Assembly: GCF_004402595.1 (NCBI RefSeq)
Contig: NZ_SOFY01000077.1
Span: forward strand, 62,001 to 126,000
Reading direction: 5' to 3'
Source of the DNA: Cryobacterium shii
Lineage (GTDB): Bacteria > Actinomycetota > Actinomycetes > Actinomycetales > Microbacteriaceae
Length of the DNA stretch: 64,000 bases
Below, piece by piece: positions 7,592 through 63,037 of this stretch (the stretch's first letter is position 1; each line of letters begins with the position of its first letter). Under the pieces are notes generated by a model that saw only the letters and a program-made list of their open reading frames with translations, was not told where the DNA came from and made no database searches. The position numbers were made by a program, and so were the translations under genes.

Positions 7592-8230
7592 TTACTGCAG
7601 GTTGGCCAGTGCCGCGGATACGACCTTCTCGGCGTCACCGGGCTCACCGAATACCGGCGAACTCAAGGTTACCCAGTAGGTCTCTGTGAAGACCTGCACC
7701 TCGCCCTTGCCGCCGGAGGTGCCGAAGTAGCCCTCCACGGCGGGCGGGGTGCCGTAGGTCGGCACGATCTGCCCGGCGGAGGCGGCCGTGTTCTTGAGCT
7801 GGTTCAGGAGCACGTCGTTCGGCTGAGCCACCGAGATCTCGATCATTTCGCCGCTGGTCTGGTTGAGCAGGCCGCAGGTGAGTCCGTCATACTCGACGGC
7901 CTTCTTAGCGAGAGCACCGCCCGGTTTGAAGTCGGGCGCCGTTCCGTAGTTCGGGTTGAACTCATACACATCGTCGAGCGTGAGCACCTGGTCGCAGGCG
8001 AGCGTGACCGGGGTGCCAGAGGGGGTCGGCGTCGGCGTCGGGGCAGCCGAAGGAGTCGAGGTCGCCGCCGCGGTCGCCGACGCCGTGGCTGTGGCTCCGG
8101 GGGTCTTCGCCGGCGCGGAATCTGAGGAGCAACCGGTCAGCGCCACCAGCGCGACCGTGCCGGCGGCGAGGAGCAGGCCGGCACGCAGGCGCCGCTCCTG
8201 ACGGAACGTGGGCGCAAGAAAGTCATTCAC
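7592..8230 (-). CDS. secreted lipoprotein of unknown function
   Basis: A 212-residue lipoprotein. A basic N-terminus and hydrophobic stretch end in the lipobox LTGC (Cys34). Next comes a flexible linker of Thr, Ala, Ser and Pro (about residues 36-72), and then a globular domain of about 140 residues with two cysteines (CDQVLTLDD and LTCGLLN) that may form a disulfide. No family was recognised. It is divergent from argS with a 70-base shared promoter region; on its own side TAAAGT lies 10 bases before the ATG. It is expected to be anchored on the outer face of the membrane. Confidence 0.8.
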   Translation of the reverse strand: MNDFLAPTFRQERRLRAGLLLAAGTVALVALTGCSSDSAPAKTPGATATASATAAATSTPSAAPTPTPTPSGTPVTLACDQVLTLDDVYEFNPNYGTAPDFKPGGALAKKAVEYDGLTCGLLNQTSGEMIEISVAQPNDVLLNQLKNTAASAGQIVPTYGTPPAVEGYFGTSGGKGEVQVFTETYWVTLSSPVFGEPGDAEKVVSAALANLQ

Positions 8231-8286
8231 GGGTTGACTTTACCAAGACGGATGCCCGCAACCCGGCCGGTCAGGACCGCGCCGGG

Positions 8287-8292
8287 TAAGAT
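8287..8292 (+). promoter_or_regulatory. -10 box for a leaderless argS operon mRNA
   Basis: TAAGAT ends 8 bases before the GTG start of argS, with no Shine-Dalgarno sequence between. No clear -35 is visible. Confidence 0.5.
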
Positions 8293-8300
8293 CGGTCTTT

Positions 8301-14092: not shown

Positions 14093-15213
14093 TGTCCAGC
14101 GAACGAGAGTCCCTGCCGAACACCGCCGTGAAGACGGCTTCACGGCAGTGGCGCGGCGTGCTGCGCGAATACGCCGACCGCCTGAACATCACGGATGCAA
14201 CGCCGATCATCACGCTCGGCGAGGGTGGCACCCCGCTCATTCCCGCTCCCGCGCTCTCCGCCCGCACGGGTGCGAAGGTCTGGGTCAAGTACGAGGGCAT
14301 GAACCCGACCGGTTCCTTCAAGGACCGCGGCATGACCATGGCCATTTCCAAGGCCGTGGAGGATGGCGCCAAGGCCGTCATCTGCGCCTCCACCGGCAAC
14401 ACCTCCGCCTCGGCCGCCGCCTACGCGGCCTACGCCGGCATCCAGGCCGTCGTGCTCGTCCCCGAGGGCAAGATCGCCATGGGCAAGCTCAGCCAGGCCA
14501 TCGCGCACAACGCGCAGCTGCTGCAGGTGCAGGGCAACTTCGACGACTGTCTCGACATCGCCCGCGACCTGTCCGCGAACTACCCCGTGCACCTGGTCAA
14601 CTCGGTCAACCCCGACCGCATCGAGGGCCAGAAGACGGCGGCCTTCGAGGTCGTCGAGGTGCTGGAAGACGCCCCGGACATCCACATCGTCCCCGTCGGC
14701 AACGCCGGCAACTACACCGCGTACACGCGCGGCTACACCGAGGAACTCGAGCGCGGCGCCACCACGAAGCTGCCCCGGATGTTCGGATTCCAGGCTTCCG
14801 GCAGCGCCCCGATCGTGCTCGGCCACCGCGTCGACCACCCGGAGACCATCGCCAGCGCCATCCGCATCGGCAACCCCGCATCCTGGGACCTGGCCCTGGC
14901 CGCCCGCACCCTGACCGACGGGTACTTCGGCGCGATCAGCGACGAGAAGATCCTCGAGGCCTACCGCATCCTCTCCGCCGAGGTCGGCATCTTCGTCGAG
15001 CCCGCCTCCGCGATCAGCGTCGCCGGCCTGCTCGAGCGGGCCGAGGCCGGACTCATCCCCGCCGGCTCGACCGTGGTGCTCACCGTCACCGGCCACGGCC
15101 TCAAGGACCCGCAGTGGGCCCTGCGCACGGCGGATGGCTCCGACGTGAAGCCGACCATCGTGCCGGTCGACACCGCCGAAATCGCGAGCGTCCTCGGGCT
15201 GGTTCAGAAATGA
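14092..15213 (+). CDS. thrC: threonine synthase
   Basis: A 373-residue PLP enzyme converting O-phosphohomoserine to threonine. The PLP lysine is K77 in NPTGSFKDRGMTMA, the phosphate-binding loop is STGNTSASAAAYAAY, and the glycine-rich cofactor contact is GNAGNYTAY. The length matches the short actinobacterial type. The start shares its A with the hom stop (TGATG), and GAAGGAG lies just upstream. Confidence 0.96.
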   Translation: MSSERESLPNTAVKTASRQWRGVLREYADRLNITDATPIITLGEGGTPLIPAPALSARTGAKVWVKYEGMNPTGSFKDRGMTMAISKAVEDGAKAVICASTGNTSASAAAYAAYAGIQAVVLVPEGKIAMGKLSQAIAHNAQLLQVQGNFDDCLDIARDLSANYPVHLVNSVNPDRIEGQKTAAFEVVEVLEDAPDIHIVPVGNAGNYTAYTRGYTEELERGATTKLPRMFGFQASGSAPIVLGHRVDHPETIASAIRIGNPASWDLALAARTLTDGYFGAISDEKILEAYRILSAEVGIFVEPASAISVAGLLERAEAGLIPAGSTVVLTVTGHGLKDPQWALRTADGSDVKPTIVPVDTAEIASVLGLVQK

Positions 15214-16163
15214 CCATCGCCGAGGCCGTCTCCGGCCGGTCGGCGCTGGCCGGTCGCTCCGTCACGGTGCAGGTCCCGGCCACCACGGCTAACCTCGGCC
15301 CGGGTTTCGACACCCTCGGCCTGGCCCTGGCGCACTACGACCACCTCGATGTCAGCGTTCGGGACGAACCCGGCGTCTTCGTCGAGGTGCAGGGCGTGGG
15401 CGCGGGAGAGGTGCCGACCGACGAGACCAACCTCGTCGTGCGCGCCATCATCCACACCTTCGCCGCCTACGGCCAGGAGCTTCCGGGCCTGAACCTGGTC
15501 GCGCACAACGTCATCCCGCACGGGCGGGGCATGGGCTCCTCGGGCGCCGCCATCGTGTCGGGCATCATGGCCGCCAAGGGCCTGCTCGAGGGCATCGTCG
15601 ATATCGACGCGGAGGCGCTGCTCGCCCTCGCCACTGAGATGGAAGGCCACCCGGACAACGTCGCGCCGGCGCTCTTCGGCGGTCTCACCATCGCCTGGAT
15701 GGCCCCGGAGGGACCGCGGCACAAAAAGCTGATGGTGCACCGCGGCGTCAAGCCGCTCGTTTTCGTGCCCGAGCACGCCATGTCCACCGCGCTGGCGCGC
15801 AGCCTGCAGCCGGAAACGGTGCCGCACGAGGACGCCGTCTTCAACGTGTCCCGGTCGGCCCTGCTGATCGCCGCGCTGATCCAGAGCCCGGAACTGCTGC
15901 TGGCAGCCACCGAGGACAAGCTCCACCAGAGCTACCGCGCCGCCGCGATGCCCGAGACCAGCCGTCTGATCACGCTGCTGCGCGACCACGGCTTCGCCGC
16001 CGTCGTCTCCGGCGCCGGTCCGTCGATCCTCGTTCTGGCCAGCGACCCGGGCCAGCGTCTCGTGGCCGCGGATCTGGTCGCCGCCGAGTCGGAGACGCCG
16101 TGGCAGGCTCTCATGCTCGCCGTCGACTCCCTGGGCGCGACGGTCACCCGCACCGACGCCTAA
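15210..16163 (+). CDS. thrB: homoserine kinase
   Basis: A 317-residue GHMP kinase that phosphorylates homoserine and feeds thrC. The N-terminal motif VPATTANLGPGFDTLGLAL, the ATP loop PHGRGMGSSGAAIVSG and the C-terminal SGAGPSILVLAS are all present. ATG 15210 overlaps the thrC stop by 4 bases. The same frame is open much further upstream, but that part overlaps thrC and encodes an unnatural Arg/His/Pro-rich peptide. It is the last gene of the operon and is followed by copy A of the 77-bp palindrome. Confidence 0.95.
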   Translation: MTIAEAVSGRSALAGRSVTVQVPATTANLGPGFDTLGLALAHYDHLDVSVRDEPGVFVEVQGVGAGEVPTDETNLVVRAIIHTFAAYGQELPGLNLVAHNVIPHGRGMGSSGAAIVSGIMAAKGLLEGIVDIDAEALLALATEMEGHPDNVAPALFGGLTIAWMAPEGPRHKKLMVHRGVKPLVFVPEHAMSTALARSLQPETVPHEDAVFNVSRSALLIAALIQSPELLLAATEDKLHQSYRAAAMPETSRLITLLRDHGFAAVVSGAGPSILVLASDPGQRLVAADLVAAESETPWQALMLAVDSLGATVTRTDA

Positions 16164-16220
16164 AGCCCCGCGCCTCCGTCCCGCACCCCACGTCCAACCT
16201 TCGTCCGAGCGCCTTGAACC

Positions 16221-16297
16221 AATTCGACGGAGATGTTGCTCTAGATAGGCGATTTTCGGGGTTTTGACTCTGATTTGGGCAAAATCTCCGTCGAATT
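16221..16297. repeat. 77-bp palindromic repeat, copy A
   Basis: The left arm at 16221-16239 and the right arm at 16279-16297 are inverted copies (18 of 19 bases pair) around a 39-base core. Flanks extend the symmetry (GAACC on the left, CGTTC on the right; 16216-16302). It lies 58 bases after thrB and well upstream of the rho promoter. Three further copies with the same arms and exact spacing lie at 44167, 58392 and 61825. Confidence 0.9.
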
Positions 16298-16613: not shown

Positions 16614-19172
16614 GTGACTGACGTCAACCTTCGTACCCTCGGTACGGATTCCTCGCGCCTCTCCACCCTTCGCGTTGCCGAGCTTCAGGCTCTGGCGCTC
16701 GAACTGGGCATCCCGGGCGCTTCCAAACTCCGTAAGGGAGAGCTCGTGGACGCTATCACTGCGGAACAGGCTCGGAACACCCCCGCGGCTGAGTTCGCCC
16801 CGGACGCCCCAGTGATCTCCGGTCCCCCGGTTTCCTCCGACTCCGCCGGTGCCGCGGGCGATTTCGCCGCGCCGGCCGCCGACGCTGCCGTTGCCACGGC
16901 ACCGCGCAAGCGGGTCTCCCGCCGCGCCACCACCGCGACCGCGGCACCAGCCGTGGCGCACGTCAACGCTGACGGTGACCTGGGCATCGGCATCATCGTC
17001 GCGGACTCCACCACCAAGCGCCGCACCACGGCCCCCACCACGTATGCCGGCCCCTCCGCCGACTCGGTGACGACCGAGCCGACCACCCCGGCCGCCGAAA
17101 AGCCCGTTCGCCAGGCCCGCAAGCGCGCCACCTCCGTCACGGTCAAGGCCGCCGCTGCCGCCGAGGCCGCCACGGAGACCGGCGCCGCCGAATCCGCCGC
17201 ACCTGAGACCGCAGCAGTGGCGACCGGCACGGTGGAGACCGCGGCCTTCCAGCCTGAGGCCGCCGTCGAGGCAGCCCCGGAGACTGCGGCTGAAGCACCC
17301 GCCGAAGCCGAAACGGCGACCGGCTCCGGCCGTTCGCGTCGCAGCAGCTCGCGCGGCGGAGCCCGTAACGGGACCGCCCGCAACGCCATCGACGCCCGCA
17401 GCAGCATCGACGCCCGCAACACCGCCGATGAGCTCGCCGCCGAGGCTCCGAACGTCATCGAGCAAACCACGCCTGCCGAGCCGGCCGAGGTCGAAAAGGC
17501 CGAGGCGACCGAGCAGGTCGAAGAGACCGAGCAGGCCGAACAGCCCCGTCAGGGACGCAACCGCAACCGCAGCCGCGGCGGCGACCGCAACCAGGGCGCC
17601 GACCGCAGCCAGGGTGGCGCCGAGCGCGGCGAGGACACCGGACGCCAGCAGAACCAGCGTCAGGCCGGCAACCGCCAGCAGAACCAGGACAATCAGGCCG
17701 ACCGCGGCCAGGAACGTCAGGCGCAGGGCCAGGACCGTCAGGGACAGGACCGTCAGGACCGACAGGGTCAGGGTCAGGGACAGGACCGTCAGGGTCAGGA
17801 CCGTCAGGACCGTCAGGGCCAGGACCGTCAGGGTCAGGACCGTCAGGGCCAGGACCGTCAGGGCCAGGACCGTCAGGGTCAGGACCGCAACGTCGGCCAG
17901 GACCGCAACGGCCCGGACGACGACCTGAACAGCCGCAGCAACCGCAACCGTTTCCGTGACCGCAAGCGTCGCGGCGTGACCACGGGCGACGACTTCGAGC
18001 CGGAGCTGAACGACGACGATGTGCTGATCCCGGTCGCGGGCATCCTCGACGTGCTCGATAACTACGCCTTCGTGCGCACCTCCGGCTACCTGCCGGGGGC
18101 CAGCGACGTCTACGTGTCGCTCGGCCAGGTCAAGAAGTACAACCTGCGCAAGGGTGACGCCGTTGTCGGTGCCATCCGCCAGCCGCACGAGGGTGACCAG
18201 AGCGGCCGCCAGAAGTACAACGCGATCGTCAAGGTCGACTCCATCAACGGCCTGACCGTCGAGGAAGCCGCCAACCGGGTTGAGTTCCAGAAGCTCACCC
18301 CGCTCTACCCGCAGGAGCGCCTGCGGCTCGAGACCGAGCCGGGGAAGCTCACGCAGCGCATCATCGATCTCGTCGCCCCGATCGGAAAGGGCCAGCGCGG
18401 CCTGATCGTCGCACCGCCCAAGGCCGGCAAGACCATCGTCATGCAGCAGATCGCCAACGCCATCGCCACGAACAACCCCGAGGTCCACCTCATGGTCGTT
18501 CTCGTCGACGAGCGTCCCGAAGAGGTCACCGACATGCAGCGCACGGTGAAGGGTGAGGTCATCGCCTCCACCTTCGACCGCCCCGCGGAGGACCACACCA
18601 CGGTCGCCGAGCTCGCCATCGAGCGCGCCAAGCGCCTGGTCGAACTGGGCCACGACGTCGTCGTGCTGCTCGACTCGATCACCCGCCTCGGCCGTGCGTA
18701 CAACCTCACCGCGCCGCCCTCGGGCCGCATCCTCTCCGGCGGTGTCGACGCCTCCGCGCTGTACCCGCCCAAGCGCTTCTTCGGCGCCGCGCGCAACATC
18801 GAGAACGGTGGCTCGCTCACCATCCTCGCCTCCGCTCTGGTCGAGACCGGGTCCAAGATGGACGAGGTCATCTTCGAGGAGTTCAAGGGCACCGGCAACA
18901 TGGAGCTCCGCCTGTCGCGCCAGCTGGCTGACAAGCGCATCTTCCCAGCGGTGGATGTCAACGCATCCGGCACCCGTCGTGAAGAAATGCTGATGAGCAC
19001 GGATGAAGTCAAGATCACCTGGAAGCTGCGCCGCGCCCTCGCCGGGCTCGAGCAGCAGCAGGCGCTCGAGGTCATCCTCGGTCGCCTCAAGGAGACCACG
19101 TCCAACGTCGAGTTCCTGATGCAGGTTCAGAAGTCGATGCCGACCCTCGGCGGGTCAGACAAGGATCACTGA
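16614..19172 (+). CDS. rho: transcription termination factor Rho with a large disordered insert
   Basis: An 852-residue hexameric RNA helicase/ATPase. After an N-terminal Rho helical domain ([17 protein letters not shown]), about 380 residues are low complexity: first Ala/Glu/Thr rich, then Arg/Asn/Gln/Asp rich, ending in many QDRQG units (about residues 373-424). The RNA-binding cold-shock domain, Walker A APPKAGKT (about 603-610), Walker [11 protein letters not shown] (about 681-690) and the Q/R loops follow intact. GTG 16614 is chosen from AGGGGAAAGGA upstream; the 37 codons before it are not protein-like. Such inserts are known in actinobacterial Rho and bind RNA. Its stop overlaps prfA by one base. 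Confidence 0.95.
17729..17887 (+). repeat. coding tandem repeats (15-base unit for QDRQG) inside rho
   Basis: The unit CAGGACCGTCAGGGC/T is repeated in tandem with occasional 6-12 base variants, giving runs of Gln-Asp-Arg-Gln-Gly. All variants keep the frame. Copy number is likely to vary between strains through slippage. Confidence 0.9.
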
Positions 19173-42167: not shown

Positions 42168-44140
42168 GCGAATCAACCGCGGCGAAGACCCCGCCCCGTC
42201 CGCCCATGCGCGGCCCGGGACACGGCGGCGGCCCGTTCGGCGGGATGAACGTTCCAGCCGAGAAGGCGATGAACTTCGGCCCGTCGGCCAGGCGGCTGCT
42301 GGGCAAGTTGCGCCCCGAACGGCTGTGGCTCATGCTGGTGCTGTTCCTCGCGATCGCAAGTGTCACCTTCTCGGTGATCGGCCCGAGGCTGCTCGGCGAG
42401 GGCACGAACCTCATCTTCGCCGGCGTCGTCTCCAAGGGCCTGCCCGCCGGTGTGAGCCAGGCTGACGTGATCAACCAGCTGCGCGCATCCGGTGAAACGG
42501 GCAAAGCCGACCTGCTCAGCGGGATGACCCTGACTCCGGGCCTGGGGATCGACTTCGCGATGCTGTCCACCGTGCTGCTCTGGGCGATGGTGCTGTACGT
42601 GCTGTCCTCCGTCTTCAGCTACGTACAGGCGTACGTGCTGAACGGGGTCGTGCAGCGCACGGTGTTCCGCCTGCGCAGCGAGATCGAGGCGAAGATCAAC
42701 CGGCTGCCGCTGCGGTACTACGACACCGTGCAGCGCGGCGAACTGCTCAGCCGGGTCACCAATGACGTGGACAACGTCTCGCAGAGCCTGCAGCAGTCGC
42801 TGAGCCAGGCGGTCACCTCACTGCTCACGGTCGTCGGCGTGATCGTGATGATGTTCCTGCTCTCGCCCCTGCTGGCCGTGATCGCCCTGGTCACCGTGCC
42901 GTTGACGCTGGTCACCACCGTGCTGATCGCGAAGCGCTCGCAGAAACTCTTCGTCGACCAGTGGACGCACACCGGCGAACTGAACGGTCAGATCGAGGAG
43001 ACCTTCACCGGGCACGCCCTGGTCAAGGTGTTCGGTCGTCAGAAGGAGGTCGAAGAACGTTTCCGGGCCAAGAACGACGAACTGTACCAGGCCAGCTTCG
43101 GCGCCCAGTTCGTCAGCGGCCTGATCATGCCCGCGATGACGTTCATCGGCAACCTGGTCTACGTGGCCATCGCCGTCGCCGGCGGCCTCCAGGTGGCGTC
43201 CGGCGCGATGCAGCTCGGCGACGTGCAGGCGTTCATCCAGTACTCCCGGCAGTTCACCCAGCCGCTCGCCCAGCTCGGATCGATGGCGAACCTCCTGCAG
43301 TCCGGGGTCGCCTCCGCCGAGCGGGTGTTCGCCCTCCTCGACGCGGAGGAGCAGAGCCCGGACCCGGAGCCGGCGACGAGCCCCGAGGTCGTGCACGGAC
43401 GGTTGACCTTCGAGGACGTCTCCTTCCGATACACCCCCGACAAACCGCTGATCGAGAACCTCAGCCTGGTGGCCGAGCCCGGCCAGACCGTCGCCATCGT
43501 GGGTCCGACCGGGGCCGGAAAGACCACTCTGGTCAACCTGATGATGCGCTTCTACGAGCTCGACGCCGGCCGGATCACGCTCGACGGTGTGGACGTCAGC
43601 GGGATGACCCGGGACGACCTGCGAGGCCGGATGGGCATGGTGCTGCAGGACACCTGGCTTTTCGGCGGCACCATCCGCGACAACATCGCCTACGGCCGAC
43701 CGGATGCCTCGGAGGAGGAGATCCTCGCGGCGGCGCGCGCCACCTACGTGGACCGGTTCGTGCACACGCTGCCGGACGGTTACGACACGGTCCTCGACGA
43801 CGAGGGCGGCAACGTCAGCGCCGGCGAGAAGCAGCTGCTCACCATCGCCCGCGCCTTCCTCGCGAAGCCGAGCGTGCTGATCCTCGACGAGGCGACCAGC
43901 TCCGTCGACACCCGCACCGAGGTGCTCGTGCAGAAGGCGATGAGCGCCCTGCGCGCCGACCGCACCAGCTTCGTGATCGCGCACCGCCTCTCCACGATTC
44001 GGGACGCCGACCTGATCCTGGTGATGGAGGCCGGCCGGATCGTCGAACTGGGCACGCACGATGAGCTCCTCGCCGCCGGCGGCGCCTACCACGCCCTCTA
44101 CAACGCGCAGTTCGCCGCGGCGGTGACCGACGAGGCCTAG
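42164..44140 (+). CDS. ABC exporter subunit B, with a degenerate signature motif
   Basis: A 658-residue half-transporter with a Gly/Pro-rich cytoplasmic N-terminus of about 45 residues and an extra loop between the first two helices. The ATPase domain has Walker A GPTGAGKT and an intact Walker B VLILDEATSSVD, but the signature is VSAGEKQLL instead of LSGGQ. Together with subunit A this gives one working and one degenerate ATP site. GGAGGAAG precedes ATG 42164; the longer frame upstream overlaps subunit A. Confidence 0.9.
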   Translation: MSESTAAKTPPRPPMRGPGHGGGPFGGMNVPAEKAMNFGPSARRLLGKLRPERLWLMLVLFLAIASVTFSVIGPRLLGEGTNLIFAGVVSKGLPAGVSQADVINQLRASGETGKADLLSGMTLTPGLGIDFAMLSTVLLWAMVLYVLSSVFSYVQAYVLNGVVQRTVFRLRSEIEAKINRLPLRYYDTVQRGELLSRVTNDVDNVSQSLQQSLSQAVTSLLTVVGVIVMMFLLSPLLAVIALVTVPLTLVTTVLIAKRSQKLFVDQWTHTGELNGQIEETFTGHALVKVFGRQKEVEERFRAKNDELYQASFGAQFVSGLIMPAMTFIGNLVYVAIAVAGGLQVASGAMQLGDVQAFIQYSRQFTQPLAQLGSMANLLQSGVASAERVFALLDAEEQSPDPEPATSPEVVHGRLTFEDVSFRYTPDKPLIENLSLVAEPGQTVAIVGPTGAGKTTLVNLMMRFYELDAGRITLDGVDVSGMTRDDLRGRMGMVLQDTWLFGGTIRDNIAYGRPDASEEEILAAARATYVDRFVHTLPDGYDTVLDDEGGNVSAGEKQLLTIARAFLAKPSVLILDEATSSVDTRTEVLVQKAMSALRADRTSFVIAHRLSTIRDADLILVMEAGRIVELGTHDELLAAGGAYHALYNAQFAAAVTDEA

Positions 44141-44166: not shown

Positions 44167-44243
44167 AATTCGACGGAGATTTTGCTGCAAATCGGCCGTT
44201 CCGGCGGGTTTGAGGCCGTTTCGGGCAAAATCTCCGTCGAATT
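44167..44243. repeat. 77-bp palindromic repeat, copy B
   Basis: The arms 44167-44185 and 44225-44243 are perfectly complementary over 19 bases around a 39-base core. The copy lies 26 bases after the ABC exporter stop. Confidence 0.9.
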
Positions 44244-57228: not shown

Positions 57229-57234
57229 TACCGT
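57229..57234 (+). promoter_or_regulatory. -10 box for a leaderless Gfo/Idh/MocA mRNA
   Basis: TACCGT ends 7 bases before ATG 57242. The GGGGAA in between could alternatively be read as a ribosome binding site. Confidence 0.4.
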
Positions 57235-57241
57235 GGGGAAC

Positions 57242-58291
57242 ATGCCCCAGTTTCAGCCTGCAACGGCCCCCATCCGCACCGGCCTGATCGGTTTCGGCAC
57301 CTCCGGGCGCGTCTTCCATAGCCCGCTCCTCGCCGCGAACCCCGACTTCTCGCTGGACCTGATCGTGACGCGGGACCCGGCCCGGCTCAACGCCGCGGCG
57401 ACCCGATACCCTCAGGCGCGCCTGGTGCCGACCGTGGAAGACCTGTTCGCGGCCGCCGACGACCTGGACCTGGTCGTGATCGGCTCCCCGTCGGCCACCC
57501 ACGTCGAGCTCGCGAACGCCGCCCTCGACGCCGGCCTTGCCGTGGTCGTCGACAAGCCGTTCGCAGTGAAACCATGGGAGGGCCGTGACCTGATCGAGAA
57601 GGCCCGGCGACTCGGTTTGCTCCTCACCGTGTTCCAGAACCGGCGCTGGGACGGCGACTTCCTCACGCTGCGTGCGCTGCTCGCCGAGGGGGCGCTGGGT
57701 GAGGTGCGCCGGTTTGAGTCCCGGTTCGAGTGGTGGAAGCCGGAACAGACCAAGTCGTGGAAGGTCGGCGCGACCATCCAGCAGGGTGGCGGGGTACTCT
57801 TCGACCTCGGCGCACACCTGATCGACCAGGCCCTGCAGCTCTTCGGCCCGGTCGATGACGTCTACGCGGAGACCCTGACCCGGCGCCCGGGCGGCGCCGC
57901 CGATGACGACACCTTCGTCGCCCTCCATCACGGGTCTGGGGTGCGCTCACACCTGTGGATGAACGGCATCGCCGCGCAGGTCGGCCCACGCTTCCGCGTG
58001 CTCGGCTCCGAATCCGGGTACACCAAGTGGGGCCTCGACGGCCAGGAGACCGCCCTCGCGGCAGGCGCCAGCCCGACCGACCCGGACTTCGGGGTGGACC
58101 CGGAATCCGCCTGGGGCATGCTCGGCCGTGACGGCGCGCTGACCCGAGTGCCCACCGAGCGCGGCGCCTACGGGGCGTTCTACAGCGGACTGGCCGACGC
58201 CCTGCTGCGCGGGGGGCCGGTCCCGGTCGACCCGGAGGACGCGCTGCGCGTGATCAACGTGATCGAGCGCGTGAACCTGCTGACGCACTAG
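57242..58291 (+). CDS. Gfo/Idh/MocA family oxidoreductase
   Basis: A 349-residue NAD(P)-dependent oxidoreductase. The N-terminal Rossmann loop is GLIGFGTSGRVFHSPLL, the conserved VDKPFAV carries the catalytic Lys, and the C-terminal alpha/beta domain has GGVLFDLGAHLIDQAL with the catalytic Asp/His. It resembles YceM/YhhX-type sugar-related dehydrogenases. ATG 57242 is favoured over the frame opening at 57206. Confidence 0.9.
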   Translation: MPQFQPATAPIRTGLIGFGTSGRVFHSPLLAANPDFSLDLIVTRDPARLNAAATRYPQARLVPTVEDLFAAADDLDLVVIGSPSATHVELANAALDAGLAVVVDKPFAVKPWEGRDLIEKARRLGLLLTVFQNRRWDGDFLTLRALLAEGALGEVRRFESRFEWWKPEQTKSWKVGATIQQGGGVLFDLGAHLIDQALQLFGPVDDVYAETLTRRPGGAADDDTFVALHHGSGVRSHLWMNGIAAQVGPRFRVLGSESGYTKWGLDGQETALAAGASPTDPDFGVDPESAWGMLGRDGALTRVPTERGAYGAFYSGLADALLRGGPVPVDPEDALRVINVIERVNLLTH

Positions 58292-58391: not shown

Positions 58392-58468
58392 AATTCGACG
58401 GAGATTTTGCCCGAAACGACCCCGAATGCCCTGATTTAGGGCATTTTCGGCAGAATCTCCGTCGAATT
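58392..58468. repeat. 77-bp palindromic repeat, copy C
   Basis: Arms 58392-58410 and 58450-58468 are complementary at 18 of 19 bases around a 39-base core. The core contains a further small stem, AATGCCCT/AGGGCATT. It lies between the convergent oxidoreductase and LysM genes, in a 268-base gap whose other parts are GC-rich and without a gene. Confidence 0.9.
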
Positions 58469-58559: not shown

Positions 58560-59045
58560 CTAGCGGGTGGTGGTCCAGTCCAGGTTGATGACATCGCGGA
58601 TGTAGATGTCCTCGCCGAGCCCCGACACCGACGGGTTCATCCGCAGCAGCTGCTGTACCGGCACGTCGAAACGCTGCGCGATCGCGAAGAAATCGTCTCC
58701 CTCGACCACGGTGTAGCTGAGCAGGTTGCCCGACCCGTCCCGGGTCGCCGCGCCCAGGGCGCCCGCCGTGGAGCCCAGGTCGTTTGCCGGGCCCTCGGGC
58801 AGCGGTTCGGCCGGGGCGGCCTCCGCATTGGGCGTGATGGTGGGCGCCGGTGCCGGCAGAGCAGGCGGGACCGGCACCGCAGCAGGAGTGGGGGTGGGTG
58901 TGGGCGTCGGCGTGGGCGTGACCGTCACGGTCGCCGTGACGACGGGTGCCGGCGCGGCGGCGCATCCGGCCAGGCCCAGCAGCGCAGCCGCCACTACCGT
59001 GATGCCGAGCCCACCGGCTGCCAGGCGACGCTGTGTGGAGCGCAT
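58560..59045 (-). CDS. LysM-domain lipoprotein
   Basis: A 161-residue lipoprotein: basic N-terminus, hydrophobic stretch and lipobox LAGC (Cys28), then a long Thr/Pro, Ala/Pro linker (about residues 30-80), and a C-terminal LysM-like domain (LLSYTVVEGDDFFAIAQRFD, VQQLLRMNPSV). It should attach to the membrane and bind peptidoglycan. The start at 59045 is set by GGGGGGAAA directly upstream. Confidence 0.87.
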   Translation of the reverse strand: MRSTQRRLAAGGLGITVVAAALLGLAGCAAAPAPVVTATVTVTPTPTPTPTPTPAAVPVPPALPAPAPTITPNAEAAPAEPLPEGPANDLGSTAGALGAATRDGSGNLLSYTVVEGDDFFAIAQRFDVPVQQLLRMNPSVSGLGEDIYIRDVINLDWTTTR

Positions 59046-60604: not shown

Positions 60605-61780
60605 ATGGACGAGAACGTGGAGACCGTCGTCATCGGCGGCGGGGCGATGGGGTCGGCGACGGCGTGGCAGCTGGTCCGGCGGGGGCGCCCGGTCACCCTG
60701 CTGGAACGCTTCGAGCCGGGGCACCTCAACGGGGCCTCGCACGGCGCCTCCCGCAACTTCAACACCGCCTATGCTGACCCGACCTATGTCGGCATGCTCG
60801 CCGAGGCGTTGCCGCTCTGGCGGGAGCTGGAAGAGGAGACGGGCAGTGCGCTGCTGGCCCAGGTCGGAGTCGTCAACCACGGCGCGAACCCGGCGTTCGA
60901 CCGGGTGGCGGAGGCGCTGACCGGCGCGGGGCTGGGGGCCGAGTTCCTGGTGCCGGAGGCCGCGGCCGAACGCTGGCCGGGCATCCGCTTCGATGGGCGG
61001 GTGCTGCACAATCCGGACGCCGGTCGATTGAACGCGGATGCCGCGGTGACCGCACTGCAGGCCGCGGCCGTCGCCGCCGGGGCTTCGGTCAGGCACGGCG
61101 TCCGGGTGCTGCGTCTGGACGTTCAGGGCGACGACCGGGTTCGCGTGACCCACGAGAACGGCAGCATCACGGCCCGGCGCGTGGTCGTCACGGTCGGGGC
61201 CTGGACCAGCGGCCTGCTCGCGGGCGTGCTTGCGACGCCCCGCCTCACGGTGACGCAGGAGCAGCCGGCGCACTTCGCCCTGCGCGACACCACGCCGGCC
61301 GCGCTGCACCGGGCAGGGACCGAGTGGCCCGGCTTCAACCATGCGCCCGACCGGTCGGACCCGCGCTACGCGTGGTGGTACTCACCGGTCTACGGCATGT
61401 ACACCCCGGGGCAGGGGGTCAAGGCCGGCTGGCACGGCGTGGGCCCGGGGACCGACCCGGATGCGCGCAGCTTCCGCCCGGAGCCGGTGCAGCTCGCCGC
61501 CCTGCAGCGGTACGTGCGCGAGTGGCTGCCCGGCGCCGACGCCGACGTGCTGGAGCCGGTGACCTGCACGTACACGACCACGGTCGACGAGGACTTCGTG
61601 CTCGACCGGGTGGGCCCAGTGATCGTCGGCGCTGGCTTCAGCGGACACGGCTTCAAGTTCACGCCGTCGGTCGGCCGGATCCTCGCCGACCTGGTCACGG
61701 GCGCCGCCCCCGCCCCGTCGCGCTTCGCCCTCAACCGCACGCCGAACGCGGGCCCCGGCGGCTGGCTCGCCCGCGCCTGA
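60605..61780 (+). CDS. FAD-dependent amine/amino-acid oxidase (sarcosine oxidase/DadA family)
   Basis: A 391-residue flavoenzyme. The FAD loop VVIGGGAMGSATAWQLVRRG is at the N-terminus, followed by the family motifs SHGASRNFNTAY, VVVTVGAWTS and, at the C-terminus, VIVGAGFSGHGFKFTPSVG. The pattern fits monomeric sarcosine or N-methyl-tryptophan oxidases; the substrate cannot be chosen. It is divergent from sdaA. Confidence 0.9.
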   Translation: MDENVETVVIGGGAMGSATAWQLVRRGRPVTLLERFEPGHLNGASHGASRNFNTAYADPTYVGMLAEALPLWRELEEETGSALLAQVGVVNHGANPAFDRVAEALTGAGLGAEFLVPEAAAERWPGIRFDGRVLHNPDAGRLNADAAVTALQAAAVAAGASVRHGVRVLRLDVQGDDRVRVTHENGSITARRVVVTVGAWTSGLLAGVLATPRLTVTQEQPAHFALRDTTPAALHRAGTEWPGFNHAPDRSDPRYAWWYSPVYGMYTPGQGVKAGWHGVGPGTDPDARSFRPEPVQLAALQRYVREWLPGADADVLEPVTCTYTTTVDEDFVLDRVGPVIVGAGFSGHGFKFTPSVGRILADLVTGAAPAPSRFALNRTPNAGPGGWLARA

Positions 61781-61824: not shown

Positions 61825-61901
61825 AATTCGACGGAGATTCGGCTCTAAAAACACGTTTCCGGCCTGTTTTGGGGCGATTTGGGCAGAATCTCCGTCGAAT
61901 T
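61825..61901. repeat. 77-bp palindromic repeat, copy D
   Basis: Arms 61825-61843 and 61883-61901 are complementary at 18 of 19 bases around a 39-base core. It lies between the convergent FAD oxidase and YeiH genes. Confidence 0.9.
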
Positions 61902-61946
61902 CGTTGGGGCGAAGGTGCGGGCAGGTGAGTCTCGGGCAGGACGGAT

Positions 61947-62046
61947 GCGCCCCGGGAAGGGCGGCTGCGCCCCGGGAAGGGCGGCTGCGCCCCGGTCAGG
62001 ACAGGTGCGCCACGGGAAGGGCGGCTGCGTCCCCGTCAGGAGAGCT
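61947..62046. repeat. 20-base tandem repeat, five units
   Basis: Five head-to-tail units with a 20-base period (consensus GCGCCCCGGGAAGGGCGGCT). The first two are identical and later ones diverged; a weaker unit may precede them. The array runs across the stop codon of the YeiH gene (62036-62038). Confidence 0.8.
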
Positions 62047-63037
62047 GCACCGCCGCCAGCGCGAGCGCCGCGATCAGGGTCCAGGAGAGTAGGCCGACGG
62101 TCAGGGCGCGGCCGCCCGTGCGGGCGAGCGAGCGCAGGTTCACGGCTGCTCCAAGCCCGAAGAGCGCGGCGGCGAGCAGATACGTCTGAACGGTGTCCGC
62201 GGCGACGAGCACGGCATCGGGCAGCGGCGCGACCGTGCGCACGAGCACCGCAACCAGGAACCCGGCCACGAACAGGGGCATGATCGGGGTGCGGCGGGTC
62301 GGGGCATCCGTCGCCGGGGCGCCCTGCTGCCGGAGTGCGTCGAGGCGGCGCTCCCGCAGGCCGACCACCGCGACGAGCGGGGCGAGCATGAGCACCCGGG
62401 TGAGTTTCACGACCACGGCCACGCCCAGCGCGGCCGTCCCGGCGACCTTGGCGGTGGCGACCACCTGCCCGACGTCGTGCACGCCGGCGCCGACCCAGTG
62501 CCCGAATTGCAGGTCGGTCAGGCCCAGCGGATGCCACAGCAGCGGCAGCACGGCAATGGCGAGCGTGCCGCAGAGGGTCACCAGCGCGATCGGGGTGGCG
62601 GTCTCCTCATCCTTCGCCCTGACGACCCCGCCCACCGCACCGATGGCGGAGGCGCCGCAGACGGAGAAGCCGGTCGCGATCAGGAGCGGCTGATGCCCGG
62701 TCAGGCCGATCCGGCGGCCGAGCCAGAGGGTGCCCAGGAATGTGAGCAGCACGATGGCCACGGTGCTGAGGATGGTCACCCAGCCGAGGCTCGCAATGTC
62801 CACGAGGCTGAGCTTGAGGCCGAGCAGCACGATGCCCAGGCGCATGAAGCGGCTCGCGGCCAGGGACAGGCCCGGGGCGAGGACCCCGGTCAGGGCCGGG
62901 CGGGCGACTGGGACGTTGCCGGCGACGATGCCGAGGACGACCGCGACCGTGAGGAGCGGCAGCGACGGGACCAGCGCGTGGACGGTGCCGGCGAGTACGG
63001 CGGTGGAGGCCGCGACGAGCACTCCCGGCAGCCACAT
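62036..63037 (-). CDS. YeiH/UPF0324 family membrane transporter (putative sulfate exporter family)
   Basis: A 333-residue protein with about ten membrane helices and the family signature LAPGLSLAASRFMRLGIVLL followed by GLKLSLVDI, plus FSVCGASAIGAVGGVVRAKD and GHWVGAGVHDVGQV. Members are annotated as putative sulfate exporters with thin evidence. The start at 63037 is supported by the -10 box TAAACT at 63045-63050; the in-frame extension to 63127 enters the terminator hairpin. Confidence 0.88.
   Translation of the reverse strand: MWLPGVLVAASTAVLAGTVHALVPSLPLLTVAVVLGIVAGNVPVARPALTGVLAPGLSLAASRFMRLGIVLLGLKLSLVDIASLGWVTILSTVAIVLLTFLGTLWLGRRIGLTGHQPLLIATGFSVCGASAIGAVGGVVRAKDEETATPIALVTLCGTLAIAVLPLLWHPLGLTDLQFGHWVGAGVHDVGQVVATAKVAGTAALGVAVVVKLTRVLMLAPLVAVVGLRERRLDALRQQGAPATDAPTRRTPIMPLFVAGFLVAVLVRTVAPLPDAVLVAADTVQTYLLAAALFGLGAAVNLRSLARTGGRALTVGLLSWTLIAALALAAVQLS

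Follow-up and report, generated by a model that had tools for sequence, protein, structure and literature searches.

An inverted-arm repeat family of Cryobacterium keeps its length and A/T phase while the letters of its core vary

Short repeats dispersed through Cryobacterium genomes, each made of two inverted arms around a core, conserve their helical geometry, that is, their length and the phase of their A/T tracts, with the letters of the core left free. We consider it reasonably probable (about 0.6) that the copies are dispersed two-armed protein-binding sites with bent DNA between the arms, which multiplied in some lineages and were then maintained. What points to protein-bound, bent DNA is the combination of a fixed register, length changes by whole helical turns, phased A/T tracts, and free letters.

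The window, a stretch of 64,000 nucleotides from Cryobacterium shii, holds four copies, given here with an example of the outer flank.

16221-16297: copy 1; arms 16221-16239 and 16279-16297, core 16240-16278
44167-44243: copy 2; arms 44167-44185 and 44225-44243, core 44186-44224
58392-58468: copy 3; arms 58392-58410 and 58450-58468, core 58411-58449
61825-61901: copy 4; arms 61825-61843 and 61883-61901, core 61844-61882
16211-16220: example of the outer flank, with a consensus of approximately GCCCCtgAACS ahead of AATT, mirrored past the right arm and weaker than the arms

These coordinates, the 19-base arms, the exactly 39 bases between them, and the similarity of the flanks all agree with the first-pass annotation, and independent gene calling bore out its placement of all four copies behind gene ends, two of them between convergent genes. 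Copy 1 lies 57 bp past the stop of the plus-strand gene 15210-16163, with the next plus-strand gene called from 16614, and copy 2 lies 26 bp past the stop of the plus-strand gene 42206-44140; both are between codirectional genes. Copy 3 is flanked by the convergent genes 57233-58291 (plus) and 58560-58877 (minus), and copy 4 by the convergent genes 60605-61780 (plus) and 62036-63037 (minus). No additional full arm was found in the window when up to 5 substitutions were allowed. The window also contains a 20-base G+C-rich tandem repeat directly downstream of copy 4 (61919-62058) and short tandem repeats (17557-17968) within a large open reading frame (ORF) called at 16614-19172.

Searched for exact 14-base arms with a free gap of 30 to 50, the genome of the window (3,487,785 bases in 91 contigs) yielded 36 copies, the gap being 41 in 32 of them and 42 in 4. 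A fixed-length pattern with up to 3 mismatches found 117 copies, or 119 when one base per arm was free, and the reversed pattern, run under the same rule as a control, had 0 matches. With 36 exact-arm copies and 117 against 0, the family is real and far beyond chance. What was found is the opposite of only four copies related by simple descent and free in length, the outcome that the first-pass annotation had named as counting against its proposal. Where 452 kb of this genome was read without a length rule, there were 23 paired copies, with an inner spacing of 47 in 19, 48 in 2, 56 in one, and 57 in one. The same 452 kb had two partnerless arms at contig ends, apparently cut by the end of an insertion sequence (IS), and no other with 0 or 1 mismatch; eight more lone 13-mers with 2 mismatches were chance-like. 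Across the family the arms are nearly invariant and the cores are variable.

The two elements at contig ends (L054 ~8140-8296, at the end of C52, and L055 1-120, at the start of C56) are interrupted at one and the same point of the arm. The interrupting ends are IS-like (GGCTCTCCTG.../...CAGGAGAGCC), and the 8 bases flanking them are AAAATCTC and AGTATCTC. From these letters it appears as if an IS that duplicates 8 bp targets the arms of the element; this IS may be ISL3-like.

The genus (Cryobacterium including Glaciibacter) was represented by 57 genomes, and the family was present in 21 of them, with 119, 118, 118, 82, 66, 38, 31, 26, 22, 19, 16, 14, 14, 11, 8, 4, 4, 4, 2, 2, and 2 copies per carrier genome. 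Among 299 sampled genomes of the bacterial family, matches occurred in 1 of 85 genera, again Cryobacterium including Glaciibacter, and 15 genomes of other families in the order had no match. In a contig-database scan, all of the matches listed came from Cryobacterium or Glaciibacter superstes, and a viral contig database had 0 exact matches. A more permissive pattern, 16 fixed bases with 1 mismatch allowed, was run on 80 genomes for hidden copies in zero-copy congeners. It gave 14 matches in G338 and 15 in G337, the two positive controls, and 0 to 3 in the other 78 genomes. Nearly all matches in the 78 look unrelated, with a possible remnant copy in G001 (C15:27893). In C. algoritolerans (L212-L225), a subfamily is flanked on the outside by GTCG...CGAC, and its arms differ from the usual ones (for example, GGACATTTT), which suggests a changed binding specificity. 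The arm sequence was not matched in the main texts of the literature searched, and no such family was named among the titles and abstract openings listed; the palindromic-repeat passages of one Cryobacterium paper (PMC7381226) concern CRISPR.

Core profiles were built from 140 of the 147 fixed-length copies, after removal of cores at least 85% alike. A/T peaks stood at element positions ~15, 24, 34, 44, 54, and 63, with G/C valleys between them; the A/T fraction was 0.77 at the peaks and 0.19 in the valleys, with an intergenic mean of 0.34. The periodicity was 10.0 bp, with a power of 50.6 against 9.5 in shuffled cores (z 62). Normalized A/T power was 5.4 in the cores versus 1.05 in 1396 other intergenic 39-mers, and phase coherence was 0.96 over the 140 copies. 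Peak A/T was lower in some species sets, at 0.50 to 0.58 in G005, G006, and C. algoricola (n = 2 each). In a comparison of species sets that took in 15 copies from C. breve ERMR7:08 (which has 38) and every copy from C. algoricola (11) and C. algoritolerans (14), GTGGGAG replaced one A/T tract in C. breve ERMR7:08 and C. algoricola, where the peak was 0.64. The core consensus of these two is unlike the main one, while the arms, the length, and most of the phase are kept.

Once the copies are oriented, the core is polar (log-likelihood, -6197 versus -6498 ± 5 in 20 controls), with a consensus of roughly GCCCgAAtCGGGCCCnAAACgGGCCgAAAaCGgGCTTTTAgaGC. The base just outside AATT tracks this polarity, being identical on both sides in 85 of the 140 copies (G..G in 67 and C..C in 18) and complementary in 48. 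In a crude wedge model of curvature, the predicted bend was 38.7 degrees, compared with 19.4 for core-shuffled elements and 16.6 for other intergenic DNA; in this model, a 5-bp insertion in the core left the mean predicted bend unlowered (37.6 versus 38.7). A search of the literature for curved DNA at convergent genes had no matches.

Length, which we count as TTCGAC...GTCGAA, falls into classes. The main class is 73, with 119, 118, 16, 22, 14, and 26 copies at up to 3 mismatches in the genome of the window, C. sinapicolor (G012), G008, G005, G022, and G277, respectively. Exact 12-base arms gave 30 copies of other lengths in the same six genomes (74 in 22, 75 in one, 82 in one, 83 in four, and 84 in two) and none of length 76 to 81 or 85 to 103, counts that do not form one distribution with those of the main class, which follow the looser mismatch rule. 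A scan of the shorter lengths from 42 to 72 in these genomes found one copy each at 72, 69, 68, and 64. The long class (82 to 84) lies one helical turn above the main class and, by eye, most of its copies have an added A/T tract, with one or two weakly phased. Off-phase lengths (68, 69, and 75) exist in a few copies. A copy in Cryobacterium sp. M96 (L063 7597-7676) is 80 long by way of a 7-base insertion in one arm; this insertion includes GAGCC and is perhaps a scar of the putative arm-targeting IS.

Orthologous copies were sought with up to 2 mismatches in the arms and an inner gap of 43 to 60, all others being counted as absent. This yielded 45 distinct pairs between species, not all of them independent, with flanking genes ~80 to 94% identical. 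The arms of these pairs were 0.87 to 1.00 identical, and core identity averaged 0.61 over the 43 pairs of equal length, random pairs averaging 0.37. Length was kept in 43 of the 45 pairs over 653 core substitutions, pair counts biased by the fixed-length pattern with which most loci had been collected; the rate in nearby intergenic DNA, 286 gap openings to 1831 substitutions, predicts ~102 indels for these cores. With length left free in the genome of the window, 10 of 11 pairs (from 7 of its copies) had the same length, and the remaining pair differed by one base. Gapped alignment brought a gain of at least 3 in 4 of 31 pairs against 0.34 expected, as if one indel balanced another, and a position-specific substitution test on the 31 same-length pairs with core identity of at least 0.5 gave modest support for the keeping of phase (p 0.005 and 0.007, from pairs that are not independent). 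Copies, once present, are held in place, and the length classes and the orthologues both support the earlier view that a fixed length with a free sequence reflects constraint on length. Three orthologous pairs matched better with the core inverted (0.59 versus 0.33 in L012/L152, 0.46 versus 0.26, and 0.56 versus 0.49); these values are near noise (random-pair 95th percentile, 0.56), and we set core inversion aside.

It might be argued that these are ordinary decaying repeats related by descent, with the phasing as a relic of one ancestral core. The core does have a consensus and a polarity, orthologous cores do drift, and overall substitution classes resemble those of other intergenic DNA, A/T-to-G/C changes making up 257 of 368 substitutions in orthologous cores (31 of the 43 same-length pairs, those with core identity of at least 0.5) and 833 of 1222 elsewhere. 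However, clades with a different core consensus keep the arms, the length, and most of the phase, and length was kept in the face of the many indels expected, so that we give this explanation almost no credence.

The four window copies all fold strongly as DNA (-17.7 to -29.8 kcal/mol, z -6.3 to -9.8), they are located at gene ends, and arm positions 1 and 2 covary, which indicates that the outer edges of the two arms evolve together. All three observations would suit a hairpin element, either REPIN-like or an RNA terminator or stabilizer at 3' ends, whose arms and core would base-pair in RNA or in single-stranded DNA. Core pairing was also slightly, though not significantly, above that of an oriented shuffle (893 of 2660 versus 867 ± 20 expected, z 1.3, or z 1.7 with G-T pairs); against an unoriented shuffle it was lower (893 versus 993 ± 28, z -3.6), a deficit that is an effect of core polarity. 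RNA folding energies were alike when cores were swapped (-36.8 versus -36.5; 60 of 147 copies). We see no significant selection on the core to pair. The partial internal pairing reported at first pass is not significantly above what core composition gives, and the long RNA or DNA hairpin proposed there as the selected feature is not supported, as oriented copies have no significant core covariation and swapped cores fold equally well. No T-run terminator was found at the four window copies in a scan of loops of 3 to 8, and in Rfam the gathering score was reached in the window by one tRNA only. Folded alone, the 19-base arm stayed unstructured at 0 kcal/mol, and adding 10 flank bases brought it to -2.6 (z -0.67); GTAG was not seen in the arm by eye. 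A hairpin would predict neither the 10-bp phasing nor the length steps of +10, and the polarity of the core has no clear tie to transcription (37 to 28, 6 being left unoriented). We regard a hairpin element as improbable.

Gene 3' ends are favored, the median distance of copies to the gene 3' end being 56 bp. Of 146 placed copies (from 154, after omission of 7 at edges and 1 within a called ORF), 66 were between convergent, 71 between tandem, and 9 between divergent genes. In the genome of the window alone, the corresponding counts were 17, 16, and 0, against a background of 30, 101, and 50 among intergenic regions 80 bp or longer.

Of 28 congener stretches orthologous to the sites of the four window copies, 3 held a copy, all of them in C. 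sinapicolor (copies 1, 3, and 4; the one at the intergenic place of copy 1 is 73 long). The other 25, one of which is a contig break, had none. These were the places of copy 1 in G008, G005, G004, G006, G007, G002, and G022; of copy 2 in C. sinapicolor, G008, G005, G006, G007, and G022; of copy 3 in the eight other congeners read there; and of copy 4 in G005, G006, and G001, with the contig break in G008. The counterpart region of copy 2 in Cryobacterium sp. M96 does hold a copy. The edges of the empty places could not be aligned for target duplication, intergenic divergence hiding the exact boundaries.

Core identity within genomes exceeded that between genomes by 0.038 (permutation standard deviation, 0.003; eight genome sets, with pairs at least 0.9 alike dropped). 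The excess was located in the genome of the window and in C. breve ERMR7:08/C. algoricola, with little or none in C. sinapicolor, M96, the MAG, C. breve TMT4-23, and C. algoritolerans. As cores are more alike within than between genomes, copying within some lineages has happened. In four pairs the cores were 0.9 or more alike: three of these are local duplications within a single locus, and the fourth spans two C. sinapicolor contigs. Two identical-core copies lie 212 bp apart in L015 (~1498-1783; contig C59 of the genome of the window), a local duplication, and similar close pairs were seen in L106 and L155. The RAYT domain (PF01797, Y1_Tnp) was found neither in the genome of the window nor in 24 congeners; overall, this search matched 1 of 40 genomes, from another family, and 5 of 14 control genomes. 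The suggestion of a mobile REP- or MITE-like unit thus holds for multiplication within some genomes and not for a RAYT-driven REP.

It is possible that the element is a purely selfish MITE-like mini-transposon, in which a putative transposase would have to join the two ends, as a 77-bp unit allows only when bent and in phase, and the phasing would be selected for transposition alone, with no host role. The higher core similarity within than between genomes in two of the sets, a range of 0 to 119 copies across the genus, the 25 of 28 orthologous stretches without a copy, and the inverted ends would all be accounted for. Transposition alone, however, would not enforce the keeping of length in place despite many substitutions. 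In addition, no RAYT was found in the 25 genomes named above, no autonomous parent was seen in the minor part of the genome read, and target duplication is not demonstrable where empty places do not align precisely. We consider this explanation somewhat unlikely.

For the two-armed binding sites that we favor, we infer a protein, binding on the same face of the helix, and a loop or wrap. A putative protein, probably dimeric or acting as two subunits, would bind both inverted 19-bp arms and, with arm centers 58 bp apart, would hold both on one helix face. The 39-bp spacer, predicted to be intrinsically curved by an A/T tract at each helical turn, would then form a tight loop or wrap. If a bent spacer is clamped by a protein in this manner, its length should be locked or change by whole turns and its A/T phase should be kept, with the letters free. 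The family would have multiplied within some lineages and then been kept in place, mostly at gene 3' ends. As to the benefit, our guess is nucleoid anchoring or insulation between neighboring transcription units. Of the first reading of this DNA, the family, the length constraint, and the multiplication are supported, and the hairpin and the RAYT are not; the 10-bp A/T phasing, the one-turn length classes, and the polarity of the core had gone unseen.

More tentatively, at rather less than even odds, we would describe a geometric repeat class, with invariant arms in helical register, a curved and sequence-free spacer, and whole-turn lengths, that would serve at gene ends as architecture or insulation sites of a genus-specific protein. 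Repeats of the dispersed palindromic kind are usually put down to RNA hairpins or to the remains of transposons. The Cryobacterium family is constrained in helical register and A/T phase, not in pairing, with ~120 natural variants in one genome, and it offers a natural library for how proteins read DNA shape and spacing. It may also mark a new chromosome-organizing or mobile system in cold-adapted actinobacteria.

We place the element among dispersed paired-arm repeats. Like MITEs and ERIC-like small repeats, it is short and intergenic, with inverted ends and without genes. MITE cores are copies of a parent transposon; for the Cryobacterium element, no parent was found in the part of the genome read, and no target duplication at the empty places in congeners, whose edges do not align. 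The P1 plasmid parS site with IHF, as described in passages of PMC5016525, is alike in its working, protein-binding repeats flanking a sharp bend, and not in membership: parS is a single plasmid site with asymmetric boxes and a bend made by IHF, whereas the Cryobacterium element has >100 chromosomal copies and phased tracts. The CGTC-tagged REPs, in passages of PMC3733652, are likewise dispersed and palindromic, have no dedicated transposase, and often form inverted pairs, and the Cryobacterium arm contains CGTC; those REPs, however, are small stem-loops (stem 8 to 9, loop 4 to 5), whereas the 19-base arm does not fold. REPINs, or paired inverted REPs, share with the element dispersed, intergenic, inverted conserved ends, a less conserved spacer whose length matters, and populations within genomes, as set out in passages of Bertels and Rainey 2011 (PMC3116915) and of PMC8049555. 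By the former's account, REPIN spacers keep their hairpin capacity by compensatory changes and a RAYT gene is associated, neither of which was found for the Cryobacterium element. The element thus has the inverted ends and fixed spacer of a REPIN without its REP stem-loop arm, hairpin spacer, or RAYT, and it has A/T phasing and one-turn length steps, which REPIN spacers may or may not share. REPINs are the closest known kind, and there is a fair chance that the Cryobacterium element forms a class of its own.
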